A DNA stretch of 64,000 nt from Bdellovibrio bacteriovorus (GTDB lineage Bacteria > Bdellovibrionota > Bdellovibrionia > Bdellovibrionales > Bdellovibrionaceae), in NCBI RefSeq assembly GCF_001592745.1, contig NZ_LUKD01000001.1:1185384-1249383 (forward strand), written 5' to 3'. This document shows positions 32,579-39,364 of this stretch, piece by piece; positions within the stretch are counted from its first letter, which is position 1, and the number at the start of each line of letters is the position of its first letter. The notes beneath the pieces are model-generated. The model searched no databases. It was not told the DNA's origin and saw only the letters and a list, made by a program, of their open reading frames with translations. Both the position numbers and the translations under genes were made by a program.

Positions 32579-34807
<2,229 letters not shown>

Positions 34808-34895: not shown

Positions 34896-35249
34896 TTACC
34901 AGTATTGTTCCGCAGGACGAATTTCAATCGCTCCACCAAGACGAGCCGCGGGAATTCTAGAAGCTACGGCTACTGCGGCTTCGATATTATCCGCCTCTAA
35001 AATACAGTATCCACCGACGCCTTCAGGCATGTATGTTCCAGTTTTTATTTCTAGCTTGCCGTTGCGAACTTGCACCGTTTTCGCAACATTCGGAAGCCCC
35101 AGCGGGAGACCCGATACAAGGCCGGCAGTTTTATTAAACTCGGCATAGTCGGCGTAAATGGCCTTTTGCTCTTCATTAGATAAGGCATTCCATTCCTTTG
35201 TCCCTGGGAGTGGCGAATATCCCTGGTAAATTAATAATACGAACTTCAT
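34896..35249 (-). CDS. YciI/DGPF-domain protein, ECF-controlled
   Basis: 117 aa. MKFVLLIYQGYSPLPG at the start and GYCILEADNIEAAVAVASRIP followed by GGAIEIRPAEQYW are the YCII/DGPF domain (PCP reductase-like PhnB/YciI group). SD GGAGG. It is divergent from an ECF sigma factor, a pairing typical for DGPF proteins with ECF sigmas. Its upstream DNA contains a minus-strand promoter of the same type as the sigma gene's own (35349-35375). Enzymatic role is not established. Confidence 0.92.
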   Translation of the reverse strand: MKFVLLIYQGYSPLPGTKEWNALSNEEQKAIYADYAEFNKTAGLVSGLPLGLPNVAKTVQVRNGKLEIKTGTYMPEGVGGYCILEADNIEAAVAVASRIPAARLGGAIEIRPAEQYW

Positions 35250-35313
35250 AAATAGCCTCCTTTTATTCGTGATTCCAATGGGTTAGGATATAGCAAAAAT
35301 AATTGCAGTATCC

Positions 35314-35340
35314 TGTCACATTCTGTAGTGCCCATTCGTC
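35314..35340 (+). promoter_or_regulatory. ECF41-type promoter of the sigma factor gene
   Basis: TGTCACA (35314-35320), a 16-bp spacer and CGTC (35337-35340) match the motif described for ECF41 sigma factors. It reads toward the sigma gene at 35401 and implies a leader of about 55 nt and autoregulation. Confidence 0.75.
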
Positions 35341-35348
35341 ATCCTTGT

Positions 35349-35375
35349 GACGAATGAAAGTTCACCGATGTGACA
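35349..35375 (-). promoter_or_regulatory. ECF41-type promoter of the YciI gene
   Basis: On the minus strand TGTCACA (35375-35369), 16 bp and CGTC (35352-35349) read toward the YciI gene. Spacing and both boxes are identical to the opposing promoter, whose -10 lies only 8 bp away. Confidence 0.75.
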
Positions 35376-35400: not shown

Positions 35401-36303
35401 ATGGATAAAAAAGACGGGCTTACAAAAAATTTCGAAGACACGCGCACTCACTTAAAAGCCGTGGCTTATAAAATGTTAGGTTCTGCCGGCGAAGCGGAAG
35501 ACGCCGTTCAAGAGGCGTGGATTCGATTGAATCATTCTGAATCCGAAAAAATTGAAAATCTAAATGGTTGGTTAACAACCGTTGTCGCCCGAGTTTGCCT
35601 AGATATGCTTCGCTCGCGCAAATCGCGCCGAGAAGAGGCTTTGGATCAAGACGACTCAAAAATGCAGATTCAGGATCCGGAAAACTTAGAAGCGAAATTT
35701 CTTATCGCGGATTCGGTCGGACCAGCTCTGCTAGTCGTACTAGATCATCTAACACCGAGTGAAAGAATTGCTTTTGTACTTCATGATCTTTTTGAAGTTC
35801 CTTTTGAAGACATCGCTCCTATTATTGACCGCACAGAAGAAGCCACAAGACAGCTTGCCAGCCGAGCACGTCGGCGCATCCGCGGCGTCAGTCATTCGCA
35901 ACAGGATATCGAACGCCAACAAGAAGTTGTGGCGGCGTTTTTAGCGGCATCGCGCGAAGGAAACTTTGAAGCCCTTCTTCGCGTTCTTCATCCAGATGCT
36001 GTTCTTCGTGCGGATGAAACAGCGATTAAAGTCGCTGAGATGAATAAAGCTAGGGGCGCACCGCAATTCAAAAAAGAGATCAAAGGTGCTGCCGGTGTGG
36101 CAAACACTCTTAAAGGAAAAGCATCAGAGGCAAGATTGGCGTTAATTAACGGCGTTCCGGGACTGACTTGGGTTCCTGGTGGAAAACCCGTCGTGGCGTT
36201 TTGTTTCTCTGTCGAGGACGAAAAAATTTCCGCCATCGATATTGTTATGGATAAAGATAAGCTTACAAATATTGAAATTGAAATCATCGAAGCAGGAGAA
36301 TAA
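35401..36303 (+). CDS. ECF sigma factor with C-terminal SnoaL-like domain (ECF41 group)
   Basis: 300 aa. Region sigma-2 is at about residues 12-75 (AVAYKMLGSAGEAEDAVQEAWIRL; GWLTTVVARVCLDMLRSRKSRREE). Sigma-4 is at about 110-160 (LTPSERIAFVLHDLFEVPFEDIA). Residues about 175-300 form an NTF2/SnoaL-like domain with LHPDAVLRAD and INGVPGLTW. That extension and the NGxPG element define ECF41, where the C-terminal domain replaces an anti-sigma factor. The usual DGGGK loop is changed (RADETAIK). The gene has its own cognate promoter upstream. A DoxX-like gene follows 2 bp later. Confidence 0.93.
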   Translation: MDKKDGLTKNFEDTRTHLKAVAYKMLGSAGEAEDAVQEAWIRLNHSESEKIENLNGWLTTVVARVCLDMLRSRKSRREEALDQDDSKMQIQDPENLEAKFLIADSVGPALLVVLDHLTPSERIAFVLHDLFEVPFEDIAPIIDRTEEATRQLASRARRRIRGVSHSQQDIERQQEVVAAFLAASREGNFEALLRVLHPDAVLRADETAIKVAEMNKARGAPQFKKEIKGAAGVANTLKGKASEARLALINGVPGLTWVPGGKPVVAFCFSVEDEKISAIDIVMDKDKLTNIEIEIIEAGE

Positions 36304-36305
36304 GC

Positions 36306-36677
36306 ATGAGCATTTTTTTATGGGTCCTTCAGTTTGCACTCGCATTTCATACGATCATCGGTGCAGTTTGGAAGTTTTCAAACACCGCAGAAGCCACGAT
36401 GCCGACCTTAGCTTCCATTCCTCAAGGGGCCTGGATGGCCCTGGCGGTTGTGGAGATCATCGCGGGACTTTGTTTGATCCTGCCTCTGTTTAAAAGAAAT
36501 CTTGCGAAAGTCGCACCTATGGCGGCAGGCCTTATTGCCGTAGAGATGTTAGCGTTCTGCGCTCTTCATTTATTTTCGGGCAGTTCAGAATATGGTCCGA
36601 TGATTTATTGGTTGATCGTTGCAGCACTCTGCGGATTCATCATTTATGGTCGCTTAGTACTAAGACCTATCAAGTAA
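36306..36677 (+). CDS. DoxX-like four-TM membrane protein
   Basis: 123 aa with four TM helices (about 3-20, 42-62, 71-92, 98-116). VLQFALAFHTIIGAVWKF and VEIIAGLCLILPLF are typical of DoxX/DoxX-like (SURF4) proteins. It starts 2 bp after the ECF sigma stop, so it is co-transcribed. DoxX-like proteins are frequent ECF41 partners. The role is unproven; a redox-linked membrane function is often proposed. Confidence 0.85.
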   Translation: MSIFLWVLQFALAFHTIIGAVWKFSNTAEATMPTLASIPQGAWMALAVVEIIAGLCLILPLFKRNLAKVAPMAAGLIAVEMLAFCALHLFSGSSEYGPMIYWLIVAALCGFIIYGRLVLRPIK

Positions 36678-37318: not shown

Positions 37319-37801
37319 TCAATCTGCTTTAGACCCTTCAAACATTGTATTTCCGTTTGCCGTTTCCGCAGGAACAGGTTGAACGACATCAAAGTGCTCA
37401 ACGATCTTTCCATTTTCGACTCTGAAAATATCCACGATGGCTCGGCCTAAATCTTTTTCATCCTTCTTTGAATGAAGATGAAGCGCCACCAAATCACCGT
37501 CAGCAAGGGCGCGATAGATTTTTACATGAGACTTAGGATTTTCTTTAAAGTAGCCCTCGAAGTAATTGTAAAAGGCGGCCGCTCCATTGGGAACTTGCGG
37601 ATTGTGTTGGATGTATTTATCACCGATGTATTTCTTTGCGGCCTCAGTGGGCTTGTGTTTGTTGAACGCAAGTTCGTAGAATTCCGTGACTAACTTTTTA
37701 TTAGCCTCTTCAGTTTTTTGGGCATTTTGAGTTTTAGCCCCAAGTGCCGTGACGGAAAAGAACAATACGGAGAAGATGCATAGGACTTTTTTGATATTCA
37801 T
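37319..37801 (-). CDS. Exported SnoaL/NTF2-like protein
   Basis: 160 aa. Signal peptide VLCIFSVLFFSVTALGA (cleavage near residue 22). The mature part is a SnoaL-like polyketide cyclase fold: KKLVTEFYELAFNKHKPTEA, KYIGDKYIQHNPQVPNGAAAF, VALHLHSKKDEKD and the end VDIFRVENGKIVEHFDVVQPVP. This is the 'predicted SnoaL-like aldol condensation-catalysing' group (YesE-like). The export signal is noteworthy because most homologues are cytosolic. The ligand is unknown. Confidence 0.9.
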   Translation of the reverse strand: MNIKKVLCIFSVLFFSVTALGAKTQNAQKTEEANKKLVTEFYELAFNKHKPTEAAKKYIGDKYIQHNPQVPNGAAAFYNYFEGYFKENPKSHVKIYRALADGDLVALHLHSKKDEKDLGRAIVDIFRVENGKIVEHFDVVQPVPAETANGNTMFEGSKAD

Positions 37802-38023
37802 TTCAATGCTCCTGTTAAAATTTTTGTTTCGATTTATTTCACCATAGGGAATTTCAAGTGACTAGCCCCTGCGGTCTTCAGTTTGTATATGAACATCAAT
37901 TAGGACCTATACCGCTGCTTATGCCCCGCTGGAAAAGCAACAGGTGGATTAAGTTAACCAAGCTTCGAAGGTTGGAAGGTTGGATTACTAAATATTCTTA
38001 ATATAGAGATGTATAATAGATTA

Positions 38024-38063
38024 ATACTCAATTCTCGTAAGACATCTTGCGGAATTCGAGTAT
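38024..38063. other. Hairpin in the 320-bp gap 37802-38123
   Basis: The gap between the exported NTF2-like gene and ArsR holds no convincing gene. Its main structure is an 11-bp stem with one bulge (ATACTC-AATTC, 38024-38034, with GAATT-C-GAGTAT, 38052-38063). It may be a terminator remnant or part of the ArsR regulatory region. Confidence 0.35.
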
Positions 38064-38123
38064 GAGGTCAAAATATGCCGCTATCTGGACAAAATTCATC
38101 ATTTCCAGTATGATCACTATATT

Positions 38124-38420
38124 ATGACGACAAAAACAGTTCGCTTAACAGACAAACAGTTTGAGCAAATCGGGAAGGCCCTAGCGGAGCCTCGTCGTTA
38201 TATGATCTTAAAGCAGATTGGCTCTTGTAAGAACGACGGCGCGATGTCTTGTAGCGCCCTCCAGGAAGTGCATGAAATTTCCGCCGCCACTCTTTCCCAT
38301 CACATCAAGGAACTTGAAACGGCAGGTCTTATTGAGATCACTCGCGAAGGCAAGTTCATGCGTATGTCCATTCAACGTGAAGTTTTACATGCCTATTTAG
38401 ATAAGCTCGCAAAGATTTAA
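38124..38420 (+). CDS. ArsR-type winged-helix regulator
   Basis: 98 aa. The winged HTH is [26 protein letters not shown] (the recognition helix [10 protein letters not shown] is typical of ArsR/HTH_20). It resembles transcriptional regulators of the YxaD type. Two cysteines ([11 protein letters not shown], near residues 35-43) could sense metal or oxidant, but no classic CxCxxC site is present. No SD. It lies 194 bp before an SDR gene on the same strand, whose promoter is bracketed by repeats that could be its operator. Confidence 0.85.
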
Positions 38421-38501
38421 TTCGCACCCCATTGCATTTTTAAACATCCCTTCAATTTCTAAGACATTTATATCTATTTGATTTAACTGAGCTTTATAGA
38501 A

Positions 38502-38569
38502 CATTTCGATAATTATCTAATCGTCGTATTGACAAAATAAATTTCATTTCGATATTTGTCTAAGTGTCG
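38502..38569 (+). promoter_or_regulatory. Promoter of SDR gene bracketed by a 25-bp direct repeat
   Basis: TTGACA (38529-38534), a 16-17 bp spacer and a -10 of GATATT (38551-38556). Two copies of CATTTCGATA-N4-TCTAA-N3-TCG (38502-38526 and 38545-38569; 43-bp offset) lie upstream of the -35 and over the -10. They look like regulator binding sites, most likely for the ArsR-type protein. Confidence 0.6.
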
Positions 38570-38614
38570 AACAATAAACCCGGTTTCATCCGGACCAATC
38601 AATGGAGTTCTTAA

Positions 38615-39364
38615 ATGAAGAAGTTAAACGGAAAAGTTGCAGTAGTAACTGGAGCCTCTAAAGGCATTGGCGCGGCGATCGCAAAAGAATACGCCGCCCA
38701 CGGCGCTTCGGTGGTGGTGAATTACTCATCCAGTAAAGAAGACGCGGATCGCGTGGTTAAAGAAATCATCGCTAATGATGGCAAAGCTATCGCCGTTCAA
38801 GGTAGCGTTGCCAACGAGAGCGACGTTAAAAGAATTTTTGAACAGACCAAGCAGGCTTTCGGAAAATTAGACATTCTAGTTAATAATGCCGGCGTTTATA
38901 AATTTGGCTCCATCGAAGAAGTTACCGAAGAAGAATTCCACCGCCAGTTCAACATCAATGTTTTGGGAATCCTTCTATCTACCCGCGAAGCTGTGAAATA
39001 TTTTACCAAAGAAGGCGGAAGTATCATCAATGTCAGCTCCGTCGTGAGCACCAGCCCGATTCCAGGCACAGTGATTTATGCTGCCACCAAAGGCGCCGTT
39101 GATACGATGACCATCGGACTTGCTCGTGAGCTTGCTCCACGCAAGATTCGCGTCAACAACATTGCTCCGGGTGGCGTCGAAACTGAAGGTTCCATCACAC
39201 TAGGTATGATCGGTTCCGACTTAGAAAAACAGATCGTTGCTCAAACACCACTCGGACGTATCGGCCAACCACAAGATATTGCAAAAATCGCGTTATTCTT
39301 AGCTTCCGACGAAGCTGGTTGGGTTACTGGTGAGCGCATTCATGGCTCCGGTGGCGCCCGTTAA
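38615..39364 (+). CDS. SDR family oxidoreductase (FabG-like)
   Basis: 249 aa classical SDR. Cofactor motif TGASKGIGAAIAKEYA (residues 12-27), NNAG (VNNAGVYKFG), catalytic Ser in NVSSVVS, YxxxK in VIYAATKGAVD, and the C-terminal GWVTGERIHGSGGAR. VNYSSSKEDA after beta-2 favours NADP(H). It is closest in type to 3-oxoacyl-ACP reductase/glucose dehydrogenase-like proteins, but context (ArsR control, no fab genes) argues for a detoxification role. SD GGAG. The following 250 bp (39365-39618) hold nothing recognisable. Confidence 0.93.
   Translation: MKKLNGKVAVVTGASKGIGAAIAKEYAAHGASVVVNYSSSKEDADRVVKEIIANDGKAIAVQGSVANESDVKRIFEQTKQAFGKLDILVNNAGVYKFGSIEEVTEEEFHRQFNINVLGILLSTREAVKYFTKEGGSIINVSSVVSTSPIPGTVIYAATKGAVDTMTIGLARELAPRKIRVNNIAPGGVETEGSITLGMIGSDLEKQIVAQTPLGRIGQPQDIAKIALFLASDEAGWVTGERIHGSGGAR

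Follow-up and report, generated by a model that had tools for sequence, protein, structure and literature searches.

ECF41 sigma factors regulate their own genes and a single target locus through the promoter motif TGTCACA-N16-CGTC (Wecke et al., 2012; PMC3426412). Among the 55 divergent ECF41 loci of that study, the motif preceded the sigma gene in 36 and the target in 41, and the targets were carboxymuconolactone decarboxylase (CMD), oxidoreductase or epimerase genes. YCII partners are absent from the text of the paper, which also mentions no overlap, palindrome or symmetry, bidirectionality or fixed gap of the promoters. Bidirectional promoters have been described for the housekeeping sigma70, where a symmetric -10 region in pseudo-symmetric DNA gives divergent starts ~10, 18 or 23 bp apart and polymerases are mutually exclusive (Warman et al., 2026; PMC12825309). 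At such promoters the polymerases compete only at high activity, and their interference lowers noise (Warman et al., 2026). Finally, M. tuberculosis SigJ (5xe7) and S. tsukubaensis SigG1/ECF56 (7qh5) join sigma2-sigma4 to a C-terminal SnoaL/NTF2-like domain, as the sigma factor considered here is predicted to do.

The locus that we analyzed in Bdellovibrio bacteriovorus carries the ECF41 motif and, like ECF41 loci, is predicted to combine sigma autoregulation with a single target locus. Its 62-bp promoter element also resembles the bidirectional promoters: the CGTCA-N6-TGACG core is pseudo-symmetric DNA with a -10 region serving both strands, as in the definition of Warman, Grainger and colleagues; divergent starts are predicted in or beside common -10 DNA, and polymerases are predicted to exclude each other. 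Unlike those promoters, it has a strict -35 and -10 on both sides for an ECF sigma factor, that sigma factor would read its own gene together with the target, and the layout of the 62 bp is the same in several phyla. The literature that we covered on ECF sigma factors and on bidirectional or overlapping promoters, which did not extend to the 2021 ECF reclassification or the SigJ structure paper, held no description of a fixed face-to-face ECF pair. The element appears to be an undescribed ECF version of the known bidirectional promoters, of which an earlier description may exist.

Two ECF41-type promoters face to face

The window, by which we mean the whole stretch of 64,000 nucleotides that was analyzed, holds the element between a YciI gene and a divergent sigma gene, with the following features.

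35314..35340, plus strand: forward ECF41-type promoter, an exact match (-35 TGTCACA at 35314-35320, N16, -10 CGTC at 35337-35340)
35349..35375, minus strand: reverse ECF41-type promoter, an exact match (-35 TGTCACA at 35375-35369, N16, -10 CGTC at 35352-35349)
35341..35348, no strand assigned: 8-bp core ATCCTTGT separating the -10 boxes, with which it makes CGTCA-N6-TGACG
34896..35249, minus strand: YCII-domain (DGPF-type) protein of 117 aa, the presumed divergent target (Pfam PF03795)
35401..36303, plus strand: ECF sigma factor of 300 aa with a C-terminal SnoaL/NTF2-like extension (Pfam Sigma70_r2, Sigma70_r4_2)
36306..36677, plus strand: DoxX-like membrane protein (Pfam PF13564), starting 2 bp past the sigma gene

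The forward promoter reads TGTCACA-TTCTGTAGTGCCCATT-CGTC on the plus strand (35314-35340) and the reverse promoter TGTCACA-TCGGTGAACTTTCATT-CGTC on the minus strand (35375-35349), so that the whole is a two-strand inverted repeat of 62 bp with CGTCA-N6-TGACG at its center. The original prediction, that the motif occurs on both strands with the -10 boxes 8 bp apart and is the one reported for ECF41 sigma factors, can thus be read directly from the DNA, the motif being identical to that of Wecke et al. (2012). The promoters face each other, and the genes they would drive point apart. The forward promoter probably drives the sigma gene and DoxX, which probably form one operon, and the reverse promoter probably drives the YciI gene; in relatives the forward promoter is kept upstream of the sigma gene.

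TGTCACA-N16-CGTC occurs twice in the window, both times in the element, against a mean of 0.12 and a maximum of 1 in shuffled windows. A search of the 3.76-Mb genome, which had been proposed as a way to define the regulon, returned no further promoter site: the one exact copy beyond the pair lies inside a coding ORF for a substrate-binding protein and was rejected as the promoter of a wider regulon. When the motif is extended by the bases at -1 and +1 (GTCACA-N16-CGTCA-N6-Y-R), these two sites are the only matches genome-wide. The regulon of this sigma factor is therefore probably this locus alone, as has been reported for ECF41 sigma factors (PMC3426412).

Several other features lie nearby. 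Directly upstream of the forward -35 is an AT-rich stretch, AGCAAAAATAATTGCAGT (35287-35312), near-identical in one relative only (L008; loci are cited by L number where they must be told apart). No sigma70 promoter was recognized in this stretch, and upstream of the sigma gene a sigma70 promoter was rejected, the single weak match being no more than shuffles gave. A KatG-type catalase-peroxidase gene (32579-34777) adjoins the YCII gene, likewise in L008 and L011, and may point to oxidative stress as the context of the locus. Downstream, 37319-39364 encodes a SnoaL-like, secreted-looking protein, an ArsR-type regulator and an SDR oxidoreductase, possibly a separate redox or metabolite-response cluster.

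The sigma factor is ECF41-like in architecture and promoter and is not a canonical member by motif. Its sigma regions are 2 and 4 only, followed by a C-terminal extension of at least 100 aa, and it has the TGTCACA-N16-CGTC promoter at its own locus. In a predicted model (mean pLDDT 84, above 90 for most of residues 170-290) the extension folds separately and matches SigJ, SigG1 and ketosteroid-isomerase folds, in keeping with a SnoaL/NTF2-like fold. The best matches among solved structures were SigJ (5xe7, the closest) and SigG1 (7qh5). Relative to SigJ, the protein is 29-30% identical over the structural alignment and is without the SigJ/ECF41 linker and extension motifs. Pfam sequence models found no SnoaL domain in it, and the NCBIfam SigJ and SigX4 models matched below cut-off. 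Conserved motifs of the ECF41 extension include DGGGR and NPDKL. Wecke et al. (2012; PMC3426412) name the sigma2-sigma4 linker motif WLPEP and state that the extension has three motifs. WLPEP, with up to one mismatch allowed, is absent from the sigma factor and its near relatives. DGGGR and NPDK are absent from 85 of the 88 sigma loci described below, including this one; the exceptions are L012-L014. These three, from the same genus, encode a second, more canonical ECF41-type sigma factor (TWLPD as a variant of WLPEP, DGGGK, NPDKL) behind separate back-to-back promoters. The linked genes differ as well, being YCII and DoxX here and not CMD, oxidoreductase or epimerase, with CMD found in many relatives. 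The earlier description of the extension as an ECF41-type SnoaL domain thus holds for the predicted fold and fails for the Pfam SnoaL domain and the WLPEP, DGGGR and NPDK motifs.

Conservation of the gap between the -10 boxes

We gathered 88 loci solely by similarity of the sigma protein and scanned the 300 bp upstream on both strands. The forward motif was present in 70 of the 88 and both motifs in 46. Overlapping face-to-face pairs occurred at 37 loci; the CGTC-to-CGTC gap was 8 in 34 of them and 9 in the other three (L071, L087 and L092), and no other gap in the range 0-30 was found in face-to-face pairs of the 88 loci. When the downstream part was shuffled (500 rounds, 70 loci), 0 gap-8 partners were reproduced. 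The remaining two-motif pairs were mostly ordinary back-to-back promoters. Overlap is not obligatory, because many divergent sigma loci (among them L012-L014, L036 and L038) have separate, non-overlapping promoters. Three rhizobial-type loci (L035, L041 and L048) have an extra GACG-N16 before TGTCACA, ~20 bp upstream of the forward -35, and give weak overlapping reverse matches at gap -47.

A second set of searches was blind to the sigma factor: whole genomes were scanned for GTCACA-N16-CGTC-N{0,30}-GACG-N16-TGTGAC, with the reversed pattern as control. Three sites were found in 192 genomes of the window's phylum (3/3 at gap 8), three in 385 genomes of the class of Rhizobium (two at gap 8, of which one is from the seed genome, and one at gap 17) and 18 in 297 genomes of the actinomycete class of Nonomuraea (17 at gap 8, one at gap 20). 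The control pattern gave zero sites. Once near-identical sequences were merged, 16 distinct sites had gap 8 and 2 had another gap (p ~2e-22 if all gaps were equally likely). A gene of the sigma family abuts the site in all 22 gap-8 loci that were read; at the gap-17 site there is no gene of this family.

Besides the window's genus, the gap-8 state is found in candidate division FCPU426, Alphaproteobacteria, Actinomycetota and Thermomicrobiota; a quick sigma tree shows at least 16 changes of arrangement state. Within the window's genus, elements agree at 21-22 of 22 bases and spacers at 15-27 of 40. Between phyla, spacers agree at 4-22 of 38 bases, without an indel across the 62 bp; the identity of the element at this distance comes partly from how sites were selected, which is not so for its length. 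The divergent partner is YCII in the window's genus (in L008, L009, L010 and L011 as well as in the window) and CMD in most rhizobia; elsewhere it is an MMPL, MFS, APH, VOC, NmrA-like, FAD-binding or small cysteine-containing protein, the gap remaining unchanged. At L111-L114 and L119-L125 a small conserved gene of ~75-80 aa (MKTMTCQDLGGPC...), presumably of DUF1059 type, stands opposite the sigma gene in the genus of L111 and its relatives, which ruled out loss of the divergent gene at L111-L114.

Could the arrangement be an inherited coincidence, two ordinary ECF41 promoters having overlapped once in an ancestor and the functionless overlap having spread by descent and transfer? The element does travel with one sigma family, close relatives have it in common, and the tree is compatible with an early origin followed by losses. 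However, spacer similarity is nearly all lost between phyla, yet the gap of 8 persists without an indel; partners as different as YciI, CMD, VOC, MMPL, MFS, APH, NmrA and small DUF-like proteins all stand at the same gap; and lengths beyond the 62 bp vary freely. We consider this history rather improbable. The recurrence of the exact spacing across phyla suggests that a shared start site has been selected and is not an accident.

A different constraint could come from translation: many actinomycete and rhizobial loci have the reverse -35 next to the start codon of the sigma gene, and translation could account for some of its conservation in these loci. The reverse -35 and the start codon are far apart in the window's genus, in FCPU426 and in some Streptomyces loci. 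The reverse half was accordingly rejected as a general by-product of the sigma ribosome-binding region: in the window and in L008, L010, L011, L018, L034 and L074 it is far from the start codon, and the geometry is the same.

DoxX adjoins the sigma gene in L008, L010, L015 and L016 and is found on the opposite, divergent side in L009 and L018; both sides therefore behave as one regulon. At L009, whose sigma factor is 72% identical, decay of the reverse half is accompanied by a separate GGTCACA-N16-CGTC promoter nearer the YCII gene; the target's need for an ECF promoter outlasts the loss of overlap there. At four loci (L023, L094, L106 and L115) the reverse half is retained with an upstream gene that is oriented toward the sigma gene; a divergent gene was looked for at these loci and none was found. 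These loci may be recent rearrangements; otherwise the reverse half may itself affect the sigma gene, through antisense transcription or non-productive binding. The latter would fit a role mainly as a brake, in which a backward polymerase, non-productive or making antisense RNA, limits autoactivation and the divergent gene is secondary. Against this, the upstream gene is divergent in most gap-8 loci where it could be resolved, and at L009, with its decayed reverse half, YciI has a promoter of its own. We regard a role mainly as a brake as unlikely.

Predicted start sites and the spacing of 8

The S. meliloti ECF41 promoter SMb20029-rpoE9, which has the TGTCACA-N16-CGTC motif, has a mapped start 9 nt after CGTC (PMC3616915; sequence in PMC6180224), and a G start has been reported in two other species (Wecke et al., 2012; PMC3426412). 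Applied to the window, the 9-nt distance predicts two divergent starts 9 bp apart.

35349, plus strand: predicted start (G) of the sigma mRNA, with a 5' UTR of 52 nt
35340, minus strand: predicted start (G) of the YciI mRNA, with a 5' UTR of 91 nt

Base preferences at promoters without a mirror half are consistent with this placement: A directly follows CGTC in 88%, the eighth base is T in 70% and the ninth a purine in 72%. The forward promoters in this 'single' set may include decayed pairs, and the reverse set is the cleaner control; in 8 reverse promoters that are non-overlapping or lone, +8 is a pyrimidine in 8/8 and +9 a purine in 7/8. With a gap of 8, both predicted starts fall on a G that pairs with the final C of the opposing CGTC. 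The T(-1)G(+1) of one promoter is complementary to the C-A at the end of the opposite CGTCA, and this overlap would explain the number 8 and predicts the starts at 35349 (+) and 35340 (-). At L012-L014 the sigma ATG lies exactly 9 nt after CGTC (the site being ~25-60 bp upstream of the matched sigma region), and therefore that sigma mRNA is predicted to be leaderless.

An operator for a dimeric DNA-binding protein, or for a free sigma dimer, would also be expected to show perfect symmetry and a fixed length, and SigJ reportedly binds promoter DNA without polymerase. But each half is exactly the published ECF41 promoter, including its spacer and start-site bases, and half-sites occur singly in other loci. 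That the palindrome is an operator and not two promoters strikes us as very unlikely.

A probable bidirectional promoter for one sigma factor

The reading we prefer, at a probability of roughly 70%, is that the 62 bp act as one bidirectional promoter, used by one alternative sigma factor, from which sigma-DoxX and the divergent YciI gene are expressed at a constant ratio. The original prediction of two face-to-face ECF41-type promoters, with the sigma gene and the divergent gene as probable targets, is supported in this respect. The holoenzyme of sigma factor and RNA polymerase would bind either way, with TGTCACA and CGTCA of one strand or the other serving as its -35 and -10, and both orientations would melt the same ~16 bp, the CGTCA-N6-TGACG core. 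The -10 box of one promoter would, on the other strand, be the initiation site of the other, so that RNAs would start at 35349 (rightward, sigma-DoxX) and 35340 (leftward, YciI) and then diverge. Only one polymerase would be loaded at a time, and both directions would require the same holoenzyme. As in SigJ and ECF41 sigma factors, the SnoaL-like extension probably controls the activity of the sigma factor. Once active, the sigma factor would increase its own expression and that of its target in parallel, the two half-sites determining the ratio, and the overlap would cap total output and damp the positive autoregulatory loop. Because both sides need the same sigma factor, the output ratio would be independent of the sigma level; in a simple occupancy calculation the ratio is constant at a shared site, and separate promoters converge toward equal output at saturation.

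That two polymerases would not be bound together, as had been proposed, finds support in the overlapping bidirectional promoters of Warman et al. (2026; PMC12825309). The further proposal that the arrangement forces a one-or-other choice fares less well. Mutual occlusion might in principle split cells into those that express the sigma operon and those that express the YciI gene, as overlapping polymerases cannot co-bind and, in E. coli, strong activation in one direction represses the other (PMC12825309). Here, however, the half-sites are near-identical and use the same sigma factor, which leaves no separate signal to favor one side, and binding would be brief and the orientation chosen anew each time. 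Such a switch is most improbable because the target side cannot run without the sigma factor: silencing the sigma gene would silence YciI too. With the same holoenzyme used in both directions, the two outputs, averaged over time, should increase in step and keep their ratio.

More tentatively, and with some doubt, we suggest that the bidirectional promoter is self-throttling as well as ratio-locked. The orientation of the holoenzyme would be a coin toss at each initiation that fixes the stoichiometry of sigma factor to target and limits runaway autoactivation, and this role would matter enough for the reverse half to be kept even where there is no divergent gene.

Bidirectional promoters have been recognized only recently and have mostly been studied as loose sigma70 symmetry; the geometry here is exact and recurs in several phyla. 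Its tie to one regulator family that would control itself and one target makes selection for mutual exclusion testable by single-base changes in spacing. CGTCA-N6-TGACG between two TGTCACA boxes offers a simple rule for finding such regulons, and the element would be a natural design for expressing two genes in a fixed ratio.
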